Source: Candidatus Tectimicrobiota bacterium
Lineage (GTDB): Bacteria; JACPSX01
Assembly: GCA_016193065.1 (NCBI GenBank)
Contig: JACPSX010000264.1
Span: forward strand, 1-22,428
DNA length: 22,428 nt
Reading direction: 5' to 3'
Both the position numbers and the translations under genes were made by a program. Position 1 is the stretch's first letter; the number at the start of each line of letters is the position of its first letter. The notes below the pieces were generated by a model. The model was not told the DNA's origin and did not search any database. It saw only the letters and a list, made by a program, of their open reading frames with translations. Of this stretch, positions 3,898-20,331 are shown in pieces.

Positions 3898-4317
3898 ATG
3901 AAAAGCAAGATCGGGCTTTGGATGGTGATCGCACTGGGGCTGATGGCTGCCGGGATGGGTACCACAGGCCGCGGACCGGGAGAAATCCCCATCCCCAGCA
4001 AGGACTTCTCCGCCACCATCGTGGACCGCCAAAACATCGCCACCCATGTAACCCAGATCAGCTTCAACGGGCAGGCCACCCTCCAGGGAGCCCGCGGAGA
4101 AGGCTCGCTGATCATTCCCTTCGACCGGATCAAGACCATCTCGTTCAGCGAGGCCAACACCCAAAAGCGCCGCGCCCGCATCACCTTCAAGGATGCCGGC
4201 GAGAGCGTGGACGTGGTGGTCGACGGGCAACTCAAGGTTTACGGAAAAAGCCGCTTTGGTGCCTTTGAAATCACCATGAAAAACATCCAACGTATAGACT
4301 TCACAGAGACCCCTTGA
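3898..4317 (+). CDS. Hypothetical exported protein, 139 aa
   Basis: I do not recognise the family. The product begins with Lys-Ser-Lys followed by a hydrophobic stretch (about residues 5-20), which reads as a signal peptide or membrane anchor, so it probably acts outside the cytoplasm. The rest alternates polar and hydrophobic residues as in a small beta-rich domain, with phrases such as SLIIPFDRIKTISF and ITMKNIQRIDF. The ATG at 3898 is preferred over an in-frame TTG at 3865 because AGGG precedes it and it places the charged residues directly ahead of the hydrophobic segment. The next gene starts 15 nt after the stop, with its ribosome binding site overlapping the stop, so the two are probably co-transcribed. 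Confidence 0.75.
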   Translation: MKSKIGLWMVIALGLMAAGMGTTGRGPGEIPIPSKDFSATIVDRQNIATHVTQISFNGQATLQGARGEGSLIIPFDRIKTISFSEANTQKRRARITFKDAGESVDVVVDGQLKVYGKSRFGAFEITMKNIQRIDFTETP

Positions 4318-5892: not shown

Positions 5893-8184
5893 CTACTGCG
5901 CCTCCCGGGAACGGATGAGATCCTGCATCTTTTTTTCCGTCTCATCGATCAGAAAGCGCAGCTCGGAGGCCTTTTCCTGAGCCCGCTCCACGAGCTGGGT
6001 TTCCTGGGCGAGGTTGGTCAGTTTCACCTTCATGTCTTCGTAGGAAATCTGCAGTTGATTGAGGCGTTCCTCGGCGCGCTGGATCTCGGCCTTCCTGTGG
6101 GCCAACTCTTCCATCTCAGAGGAAACCTGGCGGTTCAGTTGGCTGAGGCCATCCACCCTTTGAGCCACGTCCTCAAGCCGCTTGCTTTCCGACTGCAGGG
6201 TCTTGATTTCCTGGCGAGCTTCCTCCAGGAGAGAATGAACCGTCGCCACGTCCTGCTGCACGCCCCTCAGGAGCTTTTCCTTCTCCGAGATCTGCCCCAT
6301 CCGGGTGTCGATGGTGTCGAGCATGGCGCTCAACTGCCCCACTCTCTTCTCGGTCTGCAGCAGCAATTCCTCCTCGTCCTTGAGAGAGTCGATGCGGACC
6401 TCCAGCTCCCGGATCTTCCCCTCGGAGGTGATCAGCTTCTCTTCGACCTCGTCCACGGCCCGTGTTTTTGCATTGACCCGCTCCACCTTGCCGTCAATTT
6501 CCTGGAGCATGACGATCAAGTTGTCCTTGATCTCGCTCAGCTTGGCGAACTCCTCCTGGCCCTTGACGAGCTGGCTGATCTTCTTGTCCACCGTCTCGCT
6601 GAGCTGCTCCAGTGTGATGACCAGCTTGTTAATCCGCTTTTCCTGGGCATCCACCGAGACCTTATCCTTGGTTAGATCCAGGATCCGGTTTTCCACCTCG
6701 TCCATGAGATCCCGCAGGGAATCCATGCGCTTGTCGACCTTTTCGATATAGGCAATCCGGTTGCTCGTCTTGTCCACCTTGAGGTTGGCGTCTTCCAGGT
6801 AAAAATCGAGCGCGTCGAGCTTCTTTTCCAGCTTGTCGACCAGGCCCTTGCGCTGGAGCTGGGTCTCCATTTTCATGTCGATGTTGATCACCGTATTGTT
6901 CAGGTCATTGAGCTTGCGCTCGACCTGTTCGACGAGCTGGCGGCGGGCGGCCACCTCCTCGACCTTCACGGTGACTTCCTGCGACAACTGGCCCAGACGC
7001 TTCAGGTTCGCCTCGATGGCATCCACCCCTTTGAGTTCCTCACGGAAACCCGCGAATTTTCCCTCCACCTCCCGCAGGCTGTAGGCAAAATCCTCCAGCT
7101 TGTGCCGGGTCTCCTCCACGTTGGCGGCCTGCACCATGAGGGTCTCCATCTTCTTTTCCACCTCGTCCGTGAGAAAAACGTGGAGTTGGCGGACCTTCTG
7201 CTCGATCTTGTCGACCTCTCCCTTGTCCTCGGCTACTTTGGCGACCTTCTCGGCCAACTGGGCGTTCAGGGCGTCCAGCTCCTTGAGACGCTGGCCCACC
7301 CTTTGCAAGACCTCCCCCCGCTGGGACAGGCTTCTCATCTCCATCCGGATCGCCTCCAGAGAGGGGCCCAGGACGTTGATCTCTTTGCGCATCTCCTCGA
7401 CCTGGCTGTCCTGCTTGAAGAGCTCATCCATGTTGCGCTGGCAGTTTTCCAGGGTCTCCCGCAGGATGTCCGCGTCCACCGTCAGGGTTTCGACGAACTC
7501 CCGGTCCTTCTGGAATTTGGTGAGAGTCCCCTCCAGTCCCTCGGAAAGGTTCTCCAGCGCGTCGATTTTTTGCGAAGCCTCGCTGATCACGTCCCGAAGA
7601 GCGCCCACCTGGTTCATCCGGCTCGTTAAAGCCTCGACCATCCCCTCCAGTTTCGCCACATTTTTATCCGCTTTCTTGATGAGCTTGTTCTCTTCGGCCA
7701 GTTTGTTGACCTTGGATTCCATATCCCACAGGAGGACGTTGAGCCGGCCCGCTTCCTCGTTGGCCTTCTCCACCAGGCGGCGTTGCTGGCTTAAGGCCTT
7801 GGTCTTGGCCATGACGTGCTCGACCAGGGAATTGAGGCTGGTCACCTCCCGTTTCACCGTGGCGCCGAGATCATCGAGCCGGTGCATCCAGCGTTCGGCC
7901 TCGTCGAGCCGCTCCTGGGCCCGGTCGATGGAGGAAACCCGGTCTTCCACCTTCTTGGCATTGGCCTGCAGGTGGGTAATCCTCTCCTCAATCGACTCGA
8001 AAACCCCGCTCTTGTCCGCCAGCTCCTTGGTCTTCATGTCGGCGTAATCGAGCATGGTCTTCAGACTGCGCCGCTCCTGGGCAATCTCCTGCAACAGCTC
8101 CCGGAGAGTCTCGATCTCCTGCCTGGCTCCCGAGGCTGTGCTTTCCCCAGACGAATCTCTGGCCACCTGATCCTGTTCCGGCAT
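5893..8184 (-). CDS. Long coiled-coil protein made of 31-residue repeats, 763 aa
   Basis: The whole product is predicted helical coiled coil with no signal peptide, membrane segment, nucleotide-binding motif or globular domain. From residue 30 to 761 it consists of units of 31 residues with hydrophobic residues at unit positions 2, 5, 9, 12, 16, 19, 23 and 26, and Glu/Lys/Arg between. I count 23 full units plus one 14-residue part-unit (92-105); only a 1-residue and a 4-residue insertion break the period. The protein ends two residues after the last unit. ATG 8184 is preferred over an in-frame TTG at 8211 because GGGAGGAA precedes it. General searches would probably label it SMC-like, but the ATPase heads are absent. 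It may be a cytoplasmic scaffold or filament. rimI follows 14 nt downstream. Confidence 0.9.
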   Translation of the reverse strand: MPEQDQVARDSSGESTASGARQEIETLRELLQEIAQERRSLKTMLDYADMKTKELADKSGVFESIEERITHLQANAKKVEDRVSSIDRAQERLDEAERWMHRLDDLGATVKREVTSLNSLVEHVMAKTKALSQQRRLVEKANEEAGRLNVLLWDMESKVNKLAEENKLIKKADKNVAKLEGMVEALTSRMNQVGALRDVISEASQKIDALENLSEGLEGTLTKFQKDREFVETLTVDADILRETLENCQRNMDELFKQDSQVEEMRKEINVLGPSLEAIRMEMRSLSQRGEVLQRVGQRLKELDALNAQLAEKVAKVAEDKGEVDKIEQKVRQLHVFLTDEVEKKMETLMVQAANVEETRHKLEDFAYSLREVEGKFAGFREELKGVDAIEANLKRLGQLSQEVTVKVEEVAARRQLVEQVERKLNDLNNTVINIDMKMETQLQRKGLVDKLEKKLDALDFYLEDANLKVDKTSNRIAYIEKVDKRMDSLRDLMDEVENRILDLTKDKVSVDAQEKRINKLVITLEQLSETVDKKISQLVKGQEEFAKLSEIKDNLIVMLQEIDGKVERVNAKTRAVDEVEEKLITSEGKIRELEVRIDSLKDEEELLLQTEKRVGQLSAMLDTIDTRMGQISEKEKLLRGVQQDVATVHSLLEEARQEIKTLQSESKRLEDVAQRVDGLSQLNRQVSSEMEELAHRKAEIQRAEERLNQLQISYEDMKVKLTNLAQETQLVERAQEKASELRFLIDETEKKMQDLIRSREAQ
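5902..8097 (-). repeat. Tandem 31-codon repeats within the coiled-coil gene
   Basis: Protein-level repeats with a 93-bp period, diverged at DNA level. Examples with the same phase are units starting LVEQVERKLNDL, LVDKLEKKLDAL and YIEKVDKRMDSL (residues 417, 448 and 479). A 31-residue period equals four heptads plus three residues, so each unit junction introduces a stammer in the heptad pattern. Confidence 0.9.
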
Positions 8185-8220
8185 GCTCGATTCCTCCCTG
8201 AGTCCTCCCAATGATCAGCA

Positions 8221-9525: not shown

Positions 9526-11031
9526 CTACTTTTTCTTTCCCATCTCGTTGAGCAGGAAGCGGGTCAGGAGCCGGACTCCAACTCCCGTAGAACCCTTCCC
9601 CATCCAGCCGTTTCCCGTCTCATTCCAGGCCGTGCCGGCGATGTCCAGGTGGACCCAGGGGACGTCCCCGACAAACTTGCCGAGAAATGCCGCCCCCGCA
9701 ATCGTCCCGGCCTTGCCGTCGCCCACGTTCTTCACGTCGGCGATGGAGCTCTTGATCGCCTCGTAGTACTCCTTCCAGAGCGGCAGTTCCCAGACCCGCT
9801 CCCCGGACTCCTCCCCGGCCCGGCGGATCTTCCCCTTGAGGGCGTCGTTGTTGCCCAGCATCCCGGTGGCGTGGCTCCCCAGAGCCACCACGACGGCTCC
9901 CGTCAGGGTGGCCATGTCGATGATCCCGTCGGGTTTGTAGCGCTGGACGTAGGCCAGGGCGTCGGCCAGGATCAAGCGCCCCTCGGCGTCCGTGTTGATG
10001 ATCTCGACCGTCTTCCCGGAGAGGGAGCGCACCACGTCCCCGGGCTTCACGGCCGCGCCGCTAGGGAGGTTCTCCGTGGCCGGGGCAAGAAAGATCAGGT
10101 GGAAGGGGAGCTTCAGGCGGGCGGCGACCCGGGCCAAGCCCATGGTGGCAGCCGCACCTGACATGTCGTATTTCATCTCCTCCATGGACTTGCTGGGCTT
10201 GATGGAGATCCCCCCGCTGTCAAACGTGATCCCCTTGCCCACGACGGCGTAGCGACCGCGGATCCGGCCTGAGGGCTTGTACTCCAGGATGATGAACTTG
10301 GGGGGCTGCTGAGAGCCCTGGGCCACAGCGAGCAGGGCCCCCATGCCGAGCTTCTCCATTTCCGCCCGATCGAGGATTCGGCAGTCCAGCCTCTCCTCCT
10401 TGGCGAGCTTGCGGGCTTCCTGGGCCAGGAACGTGGGGGTGGCCTTGTTGCCTGGATAGTTGGCCAGGGTGCGCGTCCAGTTCACCGCCTCCGAGATCGT
10501 CTCTCCCCGACGGGCCCCCCGTTGGGCCGCGGCGAGATCCTGGGACCTCTCGACCAGAAACTTCACCTCCTGCACGTCCTTGATCTTGTCCAGCTCCTCC
10601 GTCCTGTACTCCGTGAGCTGGTAGTTCGACAGCAGCGCCCCCTCCACGAGCGCCCAGAGCTTCTCGTCCAGAGGGAGATCCCTCCGGCTGGTCCCCGGAA
10701 CCGCGAGAGTAAAGCTCTTCACCCCGATATCCTTGGCCCGCCGCACGGCTGCGGCCGATCCCGCCCGCAGCTTTTCGCGGTCCAGCTCGCGCATCTTCCC
10801 GAGTCCTACGAGAAGGACGCGCTCAGCGCCCACGCCCCCTTGCGGGTAGAGGAGAAGCGTCTGCTTGGACTCCCCCTTGAAGTCCCCTTTCTCGCGCACC
10901 TTGCGGAGGAACCCCTGCAGGGCCTTGTCCAGGCGGTTTTCCACGGCGGGAAGCCGCTCCTCGAAAAGGTTCACCACCAGCAGTTCCGTCTTCTCCTGCT
11001 CCAACGCGCCGGCCTTCACGGATATCTTCAT
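9526..11031 (-). CDS. pepA: Leucyl aminopeptidase (M17 family)
   Basis: Cytosolic two-metal aminopeptidase that removes N-terminal residues from peptides; usually a hexamer. The 501-residue product is full length. The M17 signature NTDAEGRL is at 347-354. All expected active-site residues are present at a constant offset of four from E. coli PepA: metal ligands Lys266, Asp271, Asp289, Asp348 and Glu350, and catalytic Lys278 and Arg352. The N-terminal domain (1 to about 170) is more variable, as usual. The ATG at 11031 has GAGGAG about 8 nt upstream. It appears to be a single-gene unit with its own promoter and ends against the convergent kinase gene. Confidence 0.96.
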   Translation of the reverse strand: MKISVKAGALEQEKTELLVVNLFEERLPAVENRLDKALQGFLRKVREKGDFKGESKQTLLLYPQGGVGAERVLLVGLGKMRELDREKLRAGSAAAVRRAKDIGVKSFTLAVPGTSRRDLPLDEKLWALVEGALLSNYQLTEYRTEELDKIKDVQEVKFLVERSQDLAAAQRGARRGETISEAVNWTRTLANYPGNKATPTFLAQEARKLAKEERLDCRILDRAEMEKLGMGALLAVAQGSQQPPKFIILEYKPSGRIRGRYAVVGKGITFDSGGISIKPSKSMEEMKYDMSGAAATMGLARVAARLKLPFHLIFLAPATENLPSGAAVKPGDVVRSLSGKTVEIINTDAEGRLILADALAYVQRYKPDGIIDMATLTGAVVVALGSHATGMLGNNDALKGKIRRAGEESGERVWELPLWKEYYEAIKSSIADVKNVGDGKAGTIAGAAFLGKFVGDVPWVHLDIAGTAWNETGNGWMGKGSTGVGVRLLTRFLLNEMGKKK

Positions 11032-11265: not shown

Positions 11266-11913
11266 TTACAGGGCCTTGCCGATAACGTCCAGATCATCCA
11301 ATTTTGACTTGATGCTCAAGAAGTCGTCCTCAATCTGTTGTAACCCAGACTGTAGTTCTGCGATCGCTGTAGTCGTGCTCTTTTTCTGTCGTCGGTTGAT
11401 ATCATCCATGAACCGGTTTACCAAGCGAAGAAACTCTTTCATCTCCTCCACCAAGTCATTATCGTTAACTAGCCACTCCGCACAGAGACCCTTGAGACGG
11501 GCATATGATTTCCTGAGAAGGGGCAGATTGCCCATCCAGCCTTTACGCTTCTGCAAGAAGAGCATCTTGTCCCTCACGACATGGCAGTGCGTCCGAACCA
11601 AACCATCCGTTTTGAGAAACACTTTTTTATAGGCGGCGCGGGTTTCGGGAAAATGCTTGGTAAACTTTTGGGGCGTGTTCATCTGGTAGAGGGGGCCGAT
11701 CGTATCCACAACCGTGTCGTAGCTCTTCCGCACTTCGGCAATCATCTCCTTAAGAGCATGCCTCACGTCTTGATGTTGCACGGCCCCGGACAAGGTCTTC
11801 ACGATCGTCACGAACTCCCCCAGCTTGACCTTCAGTTTCGCGAGGCCTAGGCTGAGCTCGATTTCGGGACTCAGTCTTTCCCAACCGAGTTCGTCGGTAT
11901 TCGCAAGGGTCAT
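11266..11913 (-). CDS. Hypothetical helical protein, 215 aa, last gene of the accessory operon
   Basis: Not recognised. The product is nearly all helix, rich in Lys, Leu, Asp and Glu, with no signal peptide or membrane segment and several possible coiled-coil stretches (for example around LVEEMKEFLRLVNRFMDDIN). Base composition is clearly lower in GC than in the flanking genes, a sign of separate origin. The start is well supported by GGAGGTCA ending 2 nt before ATG 11913. The upstream gene's frame runs through this start for 164 nt, but the strong ribosome binding site, AT-richer codon use and clean frame all favour this frame as coding here. Confidence 0.75.
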   Translation of the reverse strand: MTLANTDELGWERLSPEIELSLGLAKLKVKLGEFVTIVKTLSGAVQHQDVRHALKEMIAEVRKSYDTVVDTIGPLYQMNTPQKFTKHFPETRAAYKKVFLKTDGLVRTHCHVVRDKMLFLQKRKGWMGNLPLLRKSYARLKGLCAEWLVNDNDLVEEMKEFLRLVNRFMDDINRRQKKSTTTAIAELQSGLQQIEDDFLSIKSKLDDLDVIGKAL

Positions 11914-12415
11914 TTTGACCTCCTAGAGCGAGCGCCTCCTGGGCGTCCTCTGCGCTCCCGCTGATGTTAATCTGCCCGTTGCCGAAGCTGTCCGCAATGG
12001 ACGTCAGCGTCACACCGCTCACGCTCACGCCGCCTGAACCGCCGCAACTCGGCGGCAGGCCGTTGGGGCTCACGCCGAGAGCCGCCGCAACAGCCGGACA
12101 GAAGGCAAGCGAATGGAACGTTCCCGGCGAGATCGAGATCGCCAGGTCGCGCCCGGAGGCGATCGCGGTCGAAGTCTTGTTGACGTGATTGCCGTTGTTC
12201 TGCGTCGACGCCAGAAGGTTGCCGAAGAGCCCCAGCGCCTGCTTGCTGCGGTCGCTGTTGCCGATGCAGTGCACTTGGAGGCTGCTGAACTGCAGCGGCG
12301 AGAACGATCCGTTCGTCCCCGGCACGCCGCCGATCTGCATGTTCTTCTTGATCAGCTTCAAAATAGTGGGATTGGAGATTTCGGTGACCAGATCGAATCC
12401 TGCTAGCAAGCTCAT
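11750..12415 (-). CDS. Gly/Ser-rich hypothetical protein, C-terminus apparently replaced by a frameshift
   Basis: The first about 165 residues read as a real protein: MSLLAGFDLVTEISNPTILK at the start, hydrophobic beta-like strands, and SCGGSGGVSVSGVTLTSIAD followed by NGQINISGSAEDAQ. From about residue 168 the frame is an out-of-frame reading of the next gene and is Arg-rich, so the last 55 residues are probably not natural. In the neighbouring frame a TAG lies at 11925-11923, just before the next gene's ribosome binding site; a one-base indel near 11930-11970 would give a normal end there. The start has GGAGGTCA before ATG 12415. The family is not recognised; a lipid-binding beta fold is conceivable but unproven. 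Confidence 0.6.
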   Translation of the reverse strand: MSLLAGFDLVTEISNPTILKLIKKNMQIGGVPGTNGSFSPLQFSSLQVHCIGNSDRSKQALGLFGNLLASTQNNGNHVNKTSTAIASGRDLAISISPGTFHSLAFCPAVAAALGVSPNGLPPSCGGSGGVSVSGVTLTSIADSFGNGQINISGSAEDAQEALALGGQNDPCEYRRTRLGKTESRNRAQPRPRETEGQAGGVRDDREDLVRGRATSRREACS

Positions 12416-12555
12416 GCTGACCTCCTTGCAAACAGACCCTTCAGGTGGATCCGGTAGTTCTGAGGCGATTTGCTCGCTTTTAACGCCCTATAGGGCACGG
12501 CCGACAGGCCGGCCAACCGCGGCTCCGTAGCCAGGATCTCGGTCTTTGCCTTCTC

Positions 12556-13017
12556 CTACAGTTCCACACCGATGTCTTCAAACAGCAAGAACGGATGGAT
12601 CAGGAACAGGTTGCCTCCGTTCGGCACGGCCCGAATCCGCCGGAGAATCTCTTGCTCGTGCTTGAGCAGCTCGGCGTACGAGCCGATCGACAGACGGTTC
12701 ACGGTTGACTCCTCCCGGTCTGGCTGCAAGTCAAGAGCCAGACGCGCAGACAGCCGCCCGCGGCCGGACGACCGCCAACTCTGCTCGGCCACGTCCAGTG
12801 CCTCGTCACCCCGAAACACATGAAACGTCAGTTGCGACGTCGGCCGTCCGCTCGGTAGCCCCTGTGGAATCTCGATCTTCTGAACGAACTCGCCGCGAGC
12901 GCTGGTTATCGCGGTGGCGACATGAGATGAGCCGCAGTGGATGTCGACACGCAGAGCCTCGAGCTCTCGCTCGTTGGACGCGTCAACCACTACGCCTGTC
13001 AAGAGTAATGTGGACAT
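12556..13017 (-). CDS. Small protein with carboxypeptidase-regulatory-like beta domain, 153 aa
   Basis: The N-terminal half (1 to about 90) reads as a transthyretin-like beta sandwich of the carboxypeptidase-regulatory type: LTGVVVDASNE at the start, then VDIHCGSSHVATAITSARGEFV, in which small residues and a Gly-Glu-Phe turn occur where such domains have G.F. The C-terminal part (about 110-153) is helical and then hydrophobic, ending NLFLIHPFLLFEDIGVEL. There is no signal peptide. GAGGAGG lies about 8 nt before ATG 13017. A second domain of this type is found in the 723-residue protein upstream in the operon, suggesting a shared structural role. The domain assignment is by eye and moderate. 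Confidence 0.75.
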   Translation of the reverse strand: MSTLLLTGVVVDASNERELEALRVDIHCGSSHVATAITSARGEFVQKIEIPQGLPSGRPTSQLTFHVFRGDEALDVAEQSWRSSGRGRLSARLALDLQPDREESTVNRLSIGSYAELLKHEQEILRRIRAVPNGGNLFLIHPFLLFEDIGVEL

Positions 13018-13068
13018 GACGAACCTCCTCTAAGTCTTCAGTTGCAGGCGTCCCCGGTGACGCGTGGT

Positions 13069-13344
13069 TTAGAGACTGCTCACCTGTCTCAAGTGGGGCA
13101 CAGCAGCCAGTGAAGGCCTGTCTCTTAGGTCCACTGCGACTCTGGCGGCATGCCCGTCGAAGCGATACCGTTTGCCCGTGATCGGCCCCAGCACGGTTAA
13201 TCCCGTCTTGCCGAGGTACTCGAAATAAACGACGGCATAGCGCGTCGGCCGGGGTTGTGGAGAGGCACCTGGAGCGGGCTCAAAAGCCCGGCCCGTCTGA
13301 ACGATGCCGTGGAACTGTCCCCTTTGCTTGCCGCAACAGGACAT
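13069..13344 (-). CDS. Small CCG-motif protein, 91 aa
   Basis: Begins MSCCGKQRGQ, a vicinal cysteine motif followed by basic residues. The C-terminal half has the pattern YFEYLGKTGLTVLGPITGKR followed by a YRF and then VDLRDRPSLAAVPHLRQV. I recall this arrangement (CCG at the start, then GPxTGxxYRF and xSLxxVPxLR) from short uncharacterised proteins, some in phage-like loci; I could not check it. The ATG at 13344 is preferred over an upstream in-frame codon at 13365 because AAGGAGG lies just ahead of it. It starts one base after the stop of the DUF1360 gene, so translation is coupled. Confidence 0.75.
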   Translation of the reverse strand: MSCCGKQRGQFHGIVQTGRAFEPAPGASPQPRPTRYAVVYFEYLGKTGLTVLGPITGKRYRFDGHAARVAVDLRDRPSLAAVPHLRQVSSL

Positions 13345-13345
13345 C

Positions 13346-13666
13346 TCAGTCCTCCTTATCTTCAATGTATGCGGCCGGCGGTGCGCCGTGCTCGCGGTTC
13401 GTGACGCGCTCCAGCAAAATCGCTCCCGCCGACAACGCCGGCCACAACAGGAGCCGCTCCATCCACCCGTCTCCGAGGAGATAAGCGAAGGGAGCGGCGA
13501 TCCAAAGGCTCAAGCAATAAAAGCAATCGAGCAGGCTTCCCCAGAATCCCGCTCCTAGTCTCTGGCGCAAGCGGACCAGGAGATCCCACGGTCCGTCTTC
13601 CGCCTGGAGGAGATGGGTGATGCGCCAGACGCAGAGGATCCCGAGCCCAAGCCAATAAAAACGCAT
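13346..13666 (-). CDS. DUF1360-like membrane protein, 106 aa
   Basis: Short hydrophobic protein with about three membrane segments (near 1-18, 48-66 and 70-88). Features typical of DUF1360 are an early RITHLL, a central CFYCLSLWIAAP with the paired cysteines and Trp, and a final small-residue helix LLWPALSAGAILLERV. Relatives occur in phages and in Bacillus (sporulation-associated YjcA); their biochemical role is unknown to me. The start ATG 13666 has GGTGATC about 5 nt upstream, a moderate site. It follows the 723-residue gene after a 94-bp gap that holds a strong hairpin, and precedes the CCG gene by one base. Confidence 0.75.
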   Translation of the reverse strand: MRFYWLGLGILCVWRITHLLQAEDGPWDLLVRLRQRLGAGFWGSLLDCFYCLSLWIAAPFAYLLGDGWMERLLLWPALSAGAILLERVTNREHGAPPAAYIEDKED

Positions 13667-13718
13667 CGCCGATCACCAGTGGGCGCGAAGCGCGGCTCCC
13701 GGCGGCGCGCCCTCCGCC

Positions 13719-13753
13719 GCTGGGTCTGCCGCCTCGTGGACGGCAGACCCAGC
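13719..13753 (-). promoter_or_regulatory. Perfect 12-bp inverted repeat inside the accessory operon
   Basis: GCTGGGTCTGCC (13719-13730) and GGCAGACCCAGC (13742-13753) form a 12-bp stem with an 11-nt loop, 8 nt after the stop of the 723-residue gene on the minus strand. No T-run follows, so it is more likely a partial terminator or a messenger-stabilising hairpin that sets different levels for the large first genes and the small later ones. Confidence 0.6.
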
Positions 13754-13760
13754 AGAAAGC

Positions 13761-15932
13761 TCAGAAGGTCACCCCAAAGGTGAACTCGCTGAGATTGTTG
13801 TGGGAAAAGTCATAGTTGCAGCCGGCAATCGTGCGCTTATAGGCGCGCAGTTCCAACTGATAGCAGCAAGGTTCCGGGAACGCCGTGTTGACGGGAACGC
13901 TCAAGTGCAGCATGCCTCCGGCCCAGGTCGGAGCCGCAGCGCCCTGAGCTAATGCGGCGCCATACGTGGGGCCTTTCTGCAGCGCCGCCGGCGCGGGTCC
14001 CGCCGCTCCAACCGAGAGCGTCCCCACGGCCAAGAGGTTCACGAACAGGTTCTCGCCGTAGGTGGCAATCAGCGTGTAGTACGCCAGGTGTCCATCCGGG
14101 TCATAGGTCATGAAGTCGATTTCCAGGTTACCCCCTTTCTTGACATCCACATTGGTGCACGCCCCGACAGGGGTCACCGCGCCGTCTCCATCGATGACTT
14201 TGACGGCGGTGAAGTCGGTATCGGGCTCCAGGGTGCAGAGGTGGACAGTGCCCGGTCCGCACGGGTGGTCGGGGACGCTGGGCGGATGACCACTGGCCGG
14301 ACCAACCACACGATTGTCAATGGTCAGCACGAGGTAGTTGTCTTTGTCTGTATCGCACAAGGGGAGTATGCGCGAATTGACCAGGTTGCCCGCCGCGAGG
14401 TCCCAGCCCCGCAAGCGCAGGTAATACGTCCCATTCGCGAAGTTGTTCTCCGTGAGCCATACCATCAGGAGGTCCCTGTTGGAGATCCAGAAGCGGGTCA
14501 TTCCCCAGCTCCCGGGGTCGTTGTTCGCCTCGAAGTGCTCGCGGCTTTGGACGACGTTTCGTCCACTGATAAACGCAAAGGAGAAGGGGACAGAATGGAA
14601 ACCAACCGGACCTGCGGGCAATTGAGGCCCCCAGAAAGACCGCGCGAAGCCCCCGCTGGCCGGCGGCGGCATCGGGTTCCACGGCCCGGCGGCGGTCGGG
14701 GCCCACTCAAACTCGTAATAGTCCACCCCCGCTGTGTCCCCGAACACGCCGGAAATGGGTACCGCACCCGCGTACGGCCGGTCGCCGTGGCTCGCGGCAA
14801 CTCCGGGATTCGCGTAACCTGCCGGGGTCGCCGGTGCCCCGGGATTCCCACCGATATTGTTGACCTGATTGCTGCAGGCGTGGGAAATCACGATGCAGTT
14901 GCCTTCCGGGCAATCTTTGGGATCGTGGCAGATGGGGATGCAGCAGGCCCTCTCGTTGGCGATCAACGTCACGGTGAGGTCAGTCGGTATATCCCAGCGC
15001 ACGTCTGCAAAGCCCTCGTCCACGATCACAGTTCCTGGCTGAGGGCAGTCCTGCGTCACCCGGAAGACGATGTCCGGGGTGCAGTCCCACCACGGCGACC
15101 AGGGCCACCAGGGCCAGATGCGCAACTGCTCGAGTTCCGGCACGCGCGGTAACCGCTTTAACAGCCGGTCACGCAGGCTGGGCAGTACAGCCGGATCGAC
15201 GGTGGTCGATGCCGGCCGCGTGAGGACCCCTTCTTCGGCAAGCAACTGCTCGAAGATGGCGAGGGTGGGCGCGGGGCTTGGGGTTGGAAGCTTGGGGAGC
15301 TTCGGATCACGCTGCAGGACGGGTACGATCCGCTCGGCCAGGATCGGCTCGAGCCGCCAGACTCGATACTTCCACCACCACCAAGGCCACCAGCCGCAGC
15401 ACCAGCGGAACTTGATCTCAAAGGCGCCCGTCGCATCCGACGTGTCACAGCCCACTTGTTGGTTGCTGCTCCACCACCACCACCAGTCCACATCATAGGC
15501 GCAAACCTTGGCGCCGGGAACCGGGCTGCCGTCCGGACACAGGATGCGGCCGCGGATGGTAAAGGTTCGGCACCACCGCAACCACCAATACCAATAGTAT
15601 GGGTGGATCTGGATGGGCGGGAGCTTAAGTTCCCGCCGGTCCGCCCACTGCCGGGCCGACAGCTCGACGTTGATCGTCTGCATGCCCAGCAGCTCTTCAT
15701 CCGACGCATTTTCCGGGCCTACTAAAATACGCAATGCGCCAGGATTTGCGAAGAAGGTGAAGGTAGCGATACCCTGCCCCTTCGCGTCGAGCTTGACCGT
15801 CTGTGAAGAAACAGACCATTTGCGATTTTGGACGGCGACCTTAACTGACTGGTCAGGTTTGAAATCCCAGATACCGGATGCGTCTAAAGGTATCTCAAGC
15901 CTGTAGGTGTCGTGGTCTTCTCTTGCAGTCAT
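13761..15932 (-). CDS. Large tryptophan-cluster protein with carboxypeptidase-regulatory-like domain, 723 aa
   Basis: Not a recognised enzyme. Residues 1-110 form a beta-rich domain. A carboxypeptidase-regulatory-like domain lies at about 122-178 (IRGRILCPDGSPVPGAKVCA). Around and within it are four tryptophan clusters: YYWYWWLRW (112-120), five Trp in a row (150-154), WWPWWWW (181-187) and WPWWPWSPWW (273-282); 23 Trp in residues 114-282. About 200-270 is a Pro/Leu-rich helical linker. The C-terminal 430 residues hold Cys-rich beta segments (CCIPICHDPKDC) and further beta domains ending NNLSEFTFGVTF. There is no signal peptide. Its ATG overlaps the preceding stop as ATGA and has AGGAGG upstream. 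It is probably structural or surface-associated; many aromatic residues suggest carbohydrate or interface binding, but this is inference. Confidence 0.85.
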   Translation of the reverse strand: MTAREDHDTYRLEIPLDASGIWDFKPDQSVKVAVQNRKWSVSSQTVKLDAKGQGIATFTFFANPGALRILVGPENASDEELLGMQTINVELSARQWADRRELKLPPIQIHPYYWYWWLRWCRTFTIRGRILCPDGSPVPGAKVCAYDVDWWWWWSSNQQVGCDTSDATGAFEIKFRWCCGWWPWWWWKYRVWRLEPILAERIVPVLQRDPKLPKLPTPSPAPTLAIFEQLLAEEGVLTRPASTTVDPAVLPSLRDRLLKRLPRVPELEQLRIWPWWPWSPWWDCTPDIVFRVTQDCPQPGTVIVDEGFADVRWDIPTDLTVTLIANERACCIPICHDPKDCPEGNCIVISHACSNQVNNIGGNPGAPATPAGYANPGVAASHGDRPYAGAVPISGVFGDTAGVDYYEFEWAPTAAGPWNPMPPPASGGFARSFWGPQLPAGPVGFHSVPFSFAFISGRNVVQSREHFEANNDPGSWGMTRFWISNRDLLMVWLTENNFANGTYYLRLRGWDLAAGNLVNSRILPLCDTDKDNYLVLTIDNRVVGPASGHPPSVPDHPCGPGTVHLCTLEPDTDFTAVKVIDGDGAVTPVGACTNVDVKKGGNLEIDFMTYDPDGHLAYYTLIATYGENLFVNLLAVGTLSVGAAGPAPAALQKGPTYGAALAQGAAAPTWAGGMLHLSVPVNTAFPEPCCYQLELRAYKRTIAGCNYDFSHNNLSEFTFGVTF

Positions 15933-16177
15933 ACCCCCCTCCTTTCAATAACAACCGTTGATACCGCTAACCGTACTCCTTTCCCCTCACCTGAGCCGGC
16001 TTCCTTGATTGAAACCCTTATCCTTTCACCGCGACCGTCAAGGTTCAGCGCCTGGTTCCGTGTCGAAGCGCTCAGCCTGCCTTCGACCGCAAGCGACCAG
16101 AAGAGGCTGTCGTGTTGGGCGCGGATCGTCTGTTGTACCCTGTCCAGGAGCCTCGCTTTCGGCGAGCTCTCAGGCAT
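15929..16177 (-). CDS. Hypothetical protein, 82 aa, first gene of the accessory operon
   Basis: Not recognised. The N-terminal part (about 7-35) looks helical (ARLLDRVQQTIRAQHDSLFW), followed by a short beta-like C-terminal half (IRVSIKEAG, then VRLAVSTVVIERRGV). No signal peptide or cysteines. GGAGGTCA lies about 5 nt before ATG 16177, the same site type as elsewhere in this operon. The stop overlaps the ATG of the 723-residue gene by four bases, so the two are translationally coupled and the small protein may be a partner or chaperone of the large one. Confidence 0.75.
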   Translation of the reverse strand: MPESSPKARLLDRVQQTIRAQHDSLFWSLAVEGRLSASTRNQALNLDGRGERIRVSIKEAGSGEGKGVRLAVSTVVIERRGV

Positions 16178-19020: not shown

Positions 19021-20331
19021 CTATTCGGGTACGTAGACCGCGTAGCCTCTGGGCGCCGCGTACACCTGGGACCATCCGCCCCCATCGGAGCGCTGATCCA
19101 AGGGCCTGTTCCGGTCGTGTCCCCACCAGGCGGCGCAGGTGAGTTTCGTATTGGGCCACTTCGTCTGCACCCAGGCGCCGCGCCAGGAGTCCGGGTCCGC
19201 GTTGACCACCACCACGAGCCCCCGCTGGTTCCCGTATCCGTGACGTTGGGCGATGTAGAGGCGGCGATCGCTGTACAGCAGAGCCGTCCCTCCTCCCGCA
19301 TAGTCCCGGTGGACCTGGCACAGCTTCGCAATCCCGTTCGGGCTGTTCGGCAGCGCCAGACCGTAGTTGTAGTAGTCCTTCCAGAACACGCAGGGCACCC
19401 CCTCGTGCGTCAGGATAAAGGCGTAGGCGAGCAGCTTGTCGCGGACAATGGGCTGGTTTCGATCGGTGTCGTGGTTGTCGCAGAAAGTCACGGAGTGCAT
19501 GGGGATATCAAAGACCAGCCCGCTTCCCCACAGCCCCCTCATGTCGTACCCGGAGTTGTTGCACATCTCGCGCAGGGAGTAAAAGAGCGGAAAGTCAAAG
19601 GCCGACGCCGACCACCGAATGTAATCCAGGTAGCCCTTCACGGCGTCCTTGTTCCCGTCCCAGTACTCCACCACGCCGAAGCACTTCTGCCACTCTTGAA
19701 TGCTCTGCACGATCCACGAGTCGAAATACTTGACGGCGTCGTAGCGGAACCCGTCGTACCCGATCCCGGCCTGCCGATCCCGGAGCCAGCGGATGGACTC
19801 GATGACCTCCAGGTAGGTGTACGGGTTGTCATGGCAGAGGTCGGGGAGCTCGTAGCCTTCCAGGTCGCCGTAAAAGGCGCCGGCATCGCGGGAGGAGTAC
19901 TCGCAGGGATGGAAATAGGTCCAGTCCCGGGGAAACTTTCCGGACTTCGGGGCGTACTTCGTCATCATCTCCTTGCCGGTCAGGGGATTGCGCTCCTTCG
20001 CGTCGCCGATGTCACAGTGGTTCAGCACGGCATCGGCGAGAACCATCATACCGTTCTCATGGGCTGTCTGCAGGAGCGCCCGCAGCTCCGCTTTGGACCC
20101 GAACCAGGTCTTTACTCCCCCCTTCTGGTCGAACTCTCCTTGATCGTAGTAATCATACGGGGCGTACCCCATGCTGTCCACGTGGCTCGATTTCGCCGAC
20201 GGCGGCAGCCACAAGCCCGTGATCCCGATCCCGGCGAGCTCGGGGACTTTGGCGCGTACGCGCTCCCACCACTCCCCTTCCTTCCCCTCGGCCCGCGGGC
20301 AATCCCAGTAGAAGGCTTGCAGGATTCTCAT
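19021..20331 (-). CDS. Alpha-amylase, glycoside hydrolase family 13, probably cytoplasmic
   Basis: Hydrolyses alpha-1,4-glucan bonds. All four GH13 regions are visible: region I DAVLNH (100-105), region II GFRYDAVKY with nucleophile Asp198, region III VVEYWDG with acid/base Glu222, and region IV FCDNHD with Asp288. The 436-residue length and the immediate start MRILQAFYWD without a signal peptide fit the cytoplasmic GH13_5-like amylases that act on stored or imported glucans. The last about 75 residues form the C-terminal beta domain. ATG 20331 has GGAGG about 8 nt upstream. It is a single gene; a transposase start remnant lies just upstream at 20406-20433, and I see no convincing promoter. 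Confidence 0.94.
   Translation of the reverse strand: MRILQAFYWDCPRAEGKEGEWWERVRAKVPELAGIGITGLWLPPSAKSSHVDSMGYAPYDYYDQGEFDQKGGVKTWFGSKAELRALLQTAHENGMMVLADAVLNHCDIGDAKERNPLTGKEMMTKYAPKSGKFPRDWTYFHPCEYSSRDAGAFYGDLEGYELPDLCHDNPYTYLEVIESIRWLRDRQAGIGYDGFRYDAVKYFDSWIVQSIQEWQKCFGVVEYWDGNKDAVKGYLDYIRWSASAFDFPLFYSLREMCNNSGYDMRGLWGSGLVFDIPMHSVTFCDNHDTDRNQPIVRDKLLAYAFILTHEGVPCVFWKDYYNYGLALPNSPNGIAKLCQVHRDYAGGGTALLYSDRRLYIAQRHGYGNQRGLVVVVNADPDSWRGAWVQTKWPNTKLTCAAWWGHDRNRPLDQRSDGGGWSQVYAAPRGYAVYVPE

Follow-up and report, generated by a model that had tools for sequence, protein, structure and literature searches.

Here, we analyzed a 22,428-nucleotide stretch of DNA from a Candidatus Tectimicrobiota bacterium (contig JACPSX010000264.1; the window hereafter), focusing on seven minus-strand open reading frames (ORFs) that all run in the same direction between positions 16177 and 11266 (Table 1). 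An earlier sequence-only reading had taken them for a single operon of unrecognized proteins, and ORF analysis confirmed the close packing that it described: the genes for the 82- and 723-amino-acid (aa) proteins overlap by 4 bp, and gaps of 1 bp and 51 bp separate the DUF1360-like gene from the CCG gene (whose ATG is at 13344) and the CCG gene from the 153-aa gene, respectively. The remaining distances are 94 bp between the 723-aa and DUF1360 genes and 140 bp between the 153-aa and 221-aa genes, and the 221-aa Gly/Ser-rich ORF runs 164 bp into the 215-aa gene. Sites of the GGAGG type, likewise reported for most genes, precede six of the seven starts, the exception being DUF1360.

Table 1. Features of the seven-gene run and of the DNA block shared with locus L016 (positions in the window)
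Feature	Position	Strand	Basis and remarks
Large protein, 723 aa (core gene 1)	13761..15932	-	ORF; 32 other loci encode homologues upstream of DUF1360
DUF1360-like protein, 106 aa (core gene 2)	13346..13666	-	PF07098/phrog_781, near threshold; homologues in 54 loci
CCG protein, 91 aa (core gene 3)	13069..13344	-	Adjoins DUF1360 in 52/55 loci
DNA block common to window and L016	13070..15957	.	blastn, single match, 2,891 bp, 91.1% identity
82-aa ORF	15929..16177	-	4-bp overlap with large gene; outside conserved unit
153-aa protein	12556..13017	-	Outside conserved unit
Gly/Ser-rich ORF, 221 aa	11750..12415	-	Outside conserved unit; coding signature stops near 11935
Helical protein, 215 aa	11266..11913	-	Outside conserved unit; family matches sub-threshold only

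Conserved unit of three genes

A search of 290 genomes with the CCG protein revealed one clear relative, in genome G203, which adjoins a large protein and a DUF1360 protein 60% identical to that of the window. Loci were surveyed among the GTDB species genomes with the two DUF1360 sequences (window and G203) as the only query, and 54 were retrieved from about ten phyla, including Acidobacteriota, Bacteroidota, Pseudomonadota, Thermodesulfobacteriota, Myxococcota, Lentisphaerota, Verrucomicrobiota, Chlorobiota, Chloroflexota, Deinococcota, and a KSB1 bin. With the window counted in, a CCG gene lies beside DUF1360 in 52 of the 55 loci (51 by tblastn, with L048 added by clustering), and a homologous large protein (700 to 800 aa; one phmmer-linked set) is encoded upstream of DUF1360 in 33 of them. 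Because the query carried no information on either partner, both adjacencies are independent results. Intergenic gaps within the trio are mostly short, often ≤20 bp between the large gene and DUF1360, and the DUF1360 homologues of the 54 loci are 43 to 84% identical. This DUF1360 subfamily is rare: of 386 genomes sampled, 2 contain it, and one further match is marginal. The large immunoglobulin (Ig)-domain protein, DUF1360, and CCG thus constitute a rare, usually single-copy unit, in which the arrangement of the DUF1360-CCG pair is nearly invariant and the large protein varies N-terminally. That so rare a unit has the same three genes side by side in about ten phyla makes it very probable that the proteins act together.

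The cultured hosts of the trio include Thermoflavifilum thermophilum, Maribacter halichondriae, and Niabella pedocola. The 120 flanking proteins sampled belong to unrelated housekeeping families and contain no recurrent partner other than a 440-aa family (PCCPEL..DDHCDV..., TLLPGEKVRL). This family, mainly from Bacteroidota and without a Pfam or PHROG match, repeatedly adjoins the trio, upstream of the large gene in L038, L052, L054, L055, and L058, downstream of CCG in L039, and also in L036 and L029. In L068, from a Geobacter bin, the DUF1360 copy near 9995 to 10310 has lost its second Cys and usual C terminus and is possibly decayed. A weak CCG-like match in genome G086 (L123) was rejected as a trio.

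Possible exchange of the block, and its neighbors

The closest relative of the window trio is L016 (contig JACPAM010000245), labeled "Deltaproteobacteria" and grouped with Myxococcota. The DNA shared with L016 begins 25 bp ahead of the start codon of the large gene and ends at the CCG stop, and blastn shows no similarity outside these limits; the large proteins are 91% identical and the CCG proteins 92%, and leucyl aminopeptidase from the same two genomes is only 42% identical. A second pair, L031 and L040, shares the block at 75% identity with nearly the same limits, and the DUF1360 tree, itself poorly resolved, implies 18 phylum changes, compared with a minimum of 9. That the shared DNA ends at the trio limits at 91% identity, while a housekeeping protein stands at 42%, suggests that the trio may move between lineages as one block. 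L042 has the same upstream chromosomal neighborhood as L059 and L061, but the large protein beside its DUF1360-CCG pair is of another type, which suggests exchange at one site. A 240-aa ORF beside the L016 trio, considered as a transposase end, was rejected; since it carries a cupin domain according to Pfam, no mobile element was identified.

The 82-, 153-, 221-, and 215-aa proteins have no relatives at the 54 DUF1360 loci searched, so the conserved neighborhood that the sequence-only reading expected among homologues exists for the three core genes but not for the other four, and the seven-gene system that it proposed shrinks to three. That the entire run is nevertheless one functional operon, with the four extra genes as diverged or lineage-specific subunits, accords with the shared strand, close spacing, and ribosome-binding sites; we consider it quite improbable, considering that these genes accompany no other trio and that the block common with L016 ends at the trio on both sides. 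The four appear instead to be local neighbors. The 153-aa protein has no match in Pfam, NCBIfam, or PHROG, and no carboxypeptidase-regulatory-like match was found in it at E ≤ 1. In the Gly/Ser-rich ORF, which had been called broken, the G+C content at third codon positions (GC3) falls from 0.9 to 0.3 to 0.4 past about codon 160. Judging by this lost signature and the overlap into the next gene, the reading frame is probably wrong for the final ∼60 residues, as a frameshift or a truncation close to the 3′ end would explain, although no homologue proves the break; a search of 42 trio genomes and 289 others recovered only the protein itself, a weak negative without a known positive.

None of the seven proteins matched the PADLOC models of antiphage defense systems at E ≤ 0.01. 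The window contains no tRNA or Rfam matches, no convincing flanking repeats, and no excess of promoter- or terminator-like sites over shuffled sequence. Elsewhere in it, a 772-aa ORF (5893 to 8211, minus strand) looks like a single long coiled coil, and an alpha-amylase family protein (PF00128) is encoded at 19021 to 20331 (minus strand).

Properties and settings of the three proteins

The 723-aa protein is modeled as a string of Ig/fibronectin type III (FnIII)-like domains (mean predicted local distance difference test [pLDDT] score, 73), a tandem arrangement as in secreted Ig-domain adhesins, and its domain models resemble RbmA, S-layer, and pilin domains. Such a multi-Ig architecture, as predicted, fits the structural or surface role that had been suggested. 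Residues 568 to 723 align with the FnIII fold of Vibrio cholerae RbmA (Z score, 9.0; root mean square deviation [rmsd], 2.5; 99 residues); the aligned sequences are 9% identical, the large protein, unlike RbmA, has no signal peptide, and the fold is common to very many proteins, so this likeness says nothing on function. The signal peptide or known export signal expected of a secreted Ig-domain adhesin was not found: hydropathy averaged over 19 residues rises no higher than 0.05 within the first 60 residues of the window protein, and a signal-peptide-like N-terminal segment is absent from the 723-aa protein, as had been noted before, and from most large proteins. Family searches revealed no enzymatic domain. 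The earlier reading gave two of the seven proteins carboxypeptidase-regulatory-like domains; only this one shows such a match, to PF13620 and below the cut-off of 32.3 bits (16.6 bits and E = 0.01 in the window; 20.0 bits and E = 9e-4 in the L016 homologue). The Trp clusters first noticed proved to be a subgroup trait, absent from most homologues.

The N termini of the large proteins differ between groups, and conservation lies in a C-terminal Ig-like region (about residues 490 to 723) with an invariant Cys. This region also occurs in otherwise different upstream proteins (L025, L026, L042, L044, L060, and L066), with E values of 8e-5 to 2e-3 against 0.12 for the best shuffled or reversed control. 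It is single-copy in almost all of those among 41 searched genomes that have it; matches on the trio contigs were expected, as these built the model, and the informative part is the lack of further copies. Among 376 unselected genomes, seven carry the region at E ≤ 1e-4, of which only two have a clear DUF1360. In addition, another contig of the source genome (G000:C103, L002:189-2219, minus strand) encodes a protein of 676 aa that is locally and weakly similar to the 723-aa one (E = 2e-4); its downstream side reaches the contig end, and a similar-looking protein lies upstream of DUF1360-CCG in L032.

The DUF1360-like protein of 106 aa matches PF07098 at E = 4e-4 and 20.8 bits, just under the curated cut-off of 21, and phrog_781 at E = 3e-4 and 21 bits. 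Near-invariant motifs are WR.THLL..E(D)GP, R34, and (D)CxxC.S.W; phage relatives share WR.T...E.GP and CFYCLS.W, but the window protein differs from the wider family in belonging to a tight subfamily whose members are linked to CCG and the large protein. Its hydropathy peaks (medians, 1.35, 1.67, and 1.26) make two or three membrane segments likely, not certain, and by the positive-inside rule the CxxC would face the cytoplasm. No description of a DUF1360 function was found in the literature searched, which covers few subscription journals. The CCG protein starts with MSCCGxxR (pattern M.CCG..R; CNCG in many Bacteroidota), followed in the predicted structure by a low-confidence linker and a small beta barrel at residues 38 to 90 (pLDDT, >90). 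It has no match in the same family libraries (Pfam, NCBIfam, and PHROG), and its barrel has none in Foldseek at E ≤ 0.001. Profiles of all three proteins returned nothing significant in a sequence search of the PDB.

Both the CxxC of DUF1360 and the last Cys of the CCG motif are near-invariant, which would suit a thiol- or metal-handling couple (a membrane CxxC with a Cys-Cys-Gly carrier) that modifies, matures, or metal-loads a Cys-rich large protein intracellularly. The 21 Cys of the window large protein, the invariant one in its C-terminal region, and its missing signal peptide agree with such a role. We regard it as rather unlikely, since the Cys count ranges from 9 to 29 among large proteins and there is neither a solved relative nor a resemblance to any known redox or metal family.

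DUF1360 relatives also occur in other settings. In Microbacterium phage A3Wally (L080), one is located between the terminase and portal genes (3998 to 4282, directly after the terminase genes, its end overlapping the portal gene start), and another is near a terminase on a viral contig (L070); no plasmid carrying a relative was found. These packaging regions bear out half of the earlier statement that DUF1360 and CCG proteins occur in phage-like loci, but neither CCG nor the large protein has relatives among the phage records and viral contigs searched. The aligned CCG sequences proved too variable to serve in a scan of viral contigs. A role of the trio as part of a phage-tail-like particle could also invoke the CCG barrel, which aligns with the N-terminal domain of Bacillus subtilis YqbF (2hjq; 46 residues; rmsd, 1.8; Z score, 4.8), but this likeness is weak, tied with GINS domains, and without sequence relation. 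Moreover, the PF04984 sheath has no match in the source genome G000 (an 86% complete bin) and is present in 13 of 43 trio genomes with no co-occurrence link, and no tail, tube, baseplate, or head family recurs beside the trio among the 120 flanking proteins, with VgrG and PAAR at one locus. The particle is therefore very improbable.

That locus, L067, is the sole one of its kind among the 54 and has the gene row ClpB/ClpV-type ATPase, VgrG, DUF1360, CCG, and PAAR. DUF1360-CCG thus sits between VgrG and PAAR of a type VI secretion system (T6SS) island; in the window, by contrast, neither VgrG nor PAAR is encoded close to the trio. The row, together with partner genes that vary between loci, would be expected if the large protein were delivered as an effector or contact protein, with DUF1360-CCG serving as its adaptor or immunity pair. 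We judge this improbable, as the setting is found at 1 of 54 loci, the large protein has no enzymatic domain, and no secretion genes recur near the trio. In L057, the neighbors are a subtilase and an acidic, Cys-rich protein; the latter (L057:9087-9917; 276 aa) is very acidic in its N-terminal half and has a repeated C-terminal half rich in Cys, Arg, and Tyr, and it lies beside the signal-less subtilase. L069 has a clostripain-family neighbor, and no CCG was found there. These settings, with those in phages, indicate that DUF1360 is not confined to loci with the large protein.

Possible role at the cell surface

We tentatively favor, as quite possible though short of probable, that the large protein serves at the surface or as a scaffold and that DUF1360 and CCG are a dedicated pair that keeps it at, or passes it through, the membrane. 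DUF1360 would be an integral membrane protein with its CxxC on the cytoplasmic side, on which the CCG protein would dock, perhaps via a joint metal or thiol site (CC plus CxxC). Together, the two would recognize the signal-less large protein by its C-terminal region and hold it at the membrane or assist its crossing, and its Ig-like domains may form an adhesive or scaffolding layer there. More broadly, and doubtfully, DUF1360-CCG may be a membrane device of two proteins that recognizes the C-terminal Ig-like region and so exports or anchors proteins that lack a signal and have exchangeable N-terminal parts, namely, a dedicated secretion or anchoring route unlike those described and partly common to phages and a T6SS island.

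Several observations weigh against the favored role. A subtilase (L057), VgrG (L067), or clostripain-family protein (L069) replaces the large protein at some loci, and a few genomes, e.g., G255, have the C-terminal region but no DUF1360, indicating that the large protein can exist alone. The Ig-fold structural matches are generic, and the moderate hydropathy of DUF1360 leaves the number of membrane segments uncertain. Furthermore, the two key genomes of the block comparison, G000 and G290, are metagenome bins, and the apparent transfer could include mis-binning.

Two of the trio families are unnamed, and for the third, a DUF, the literature searched describes no function. If the pair does export or anchor signal-less Ig-domain proteins, this would be a new way for proteins to reach the cell surface. 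Through the trio, DUF1360, which is also a phage gene, gains its first fixed partners for testing.

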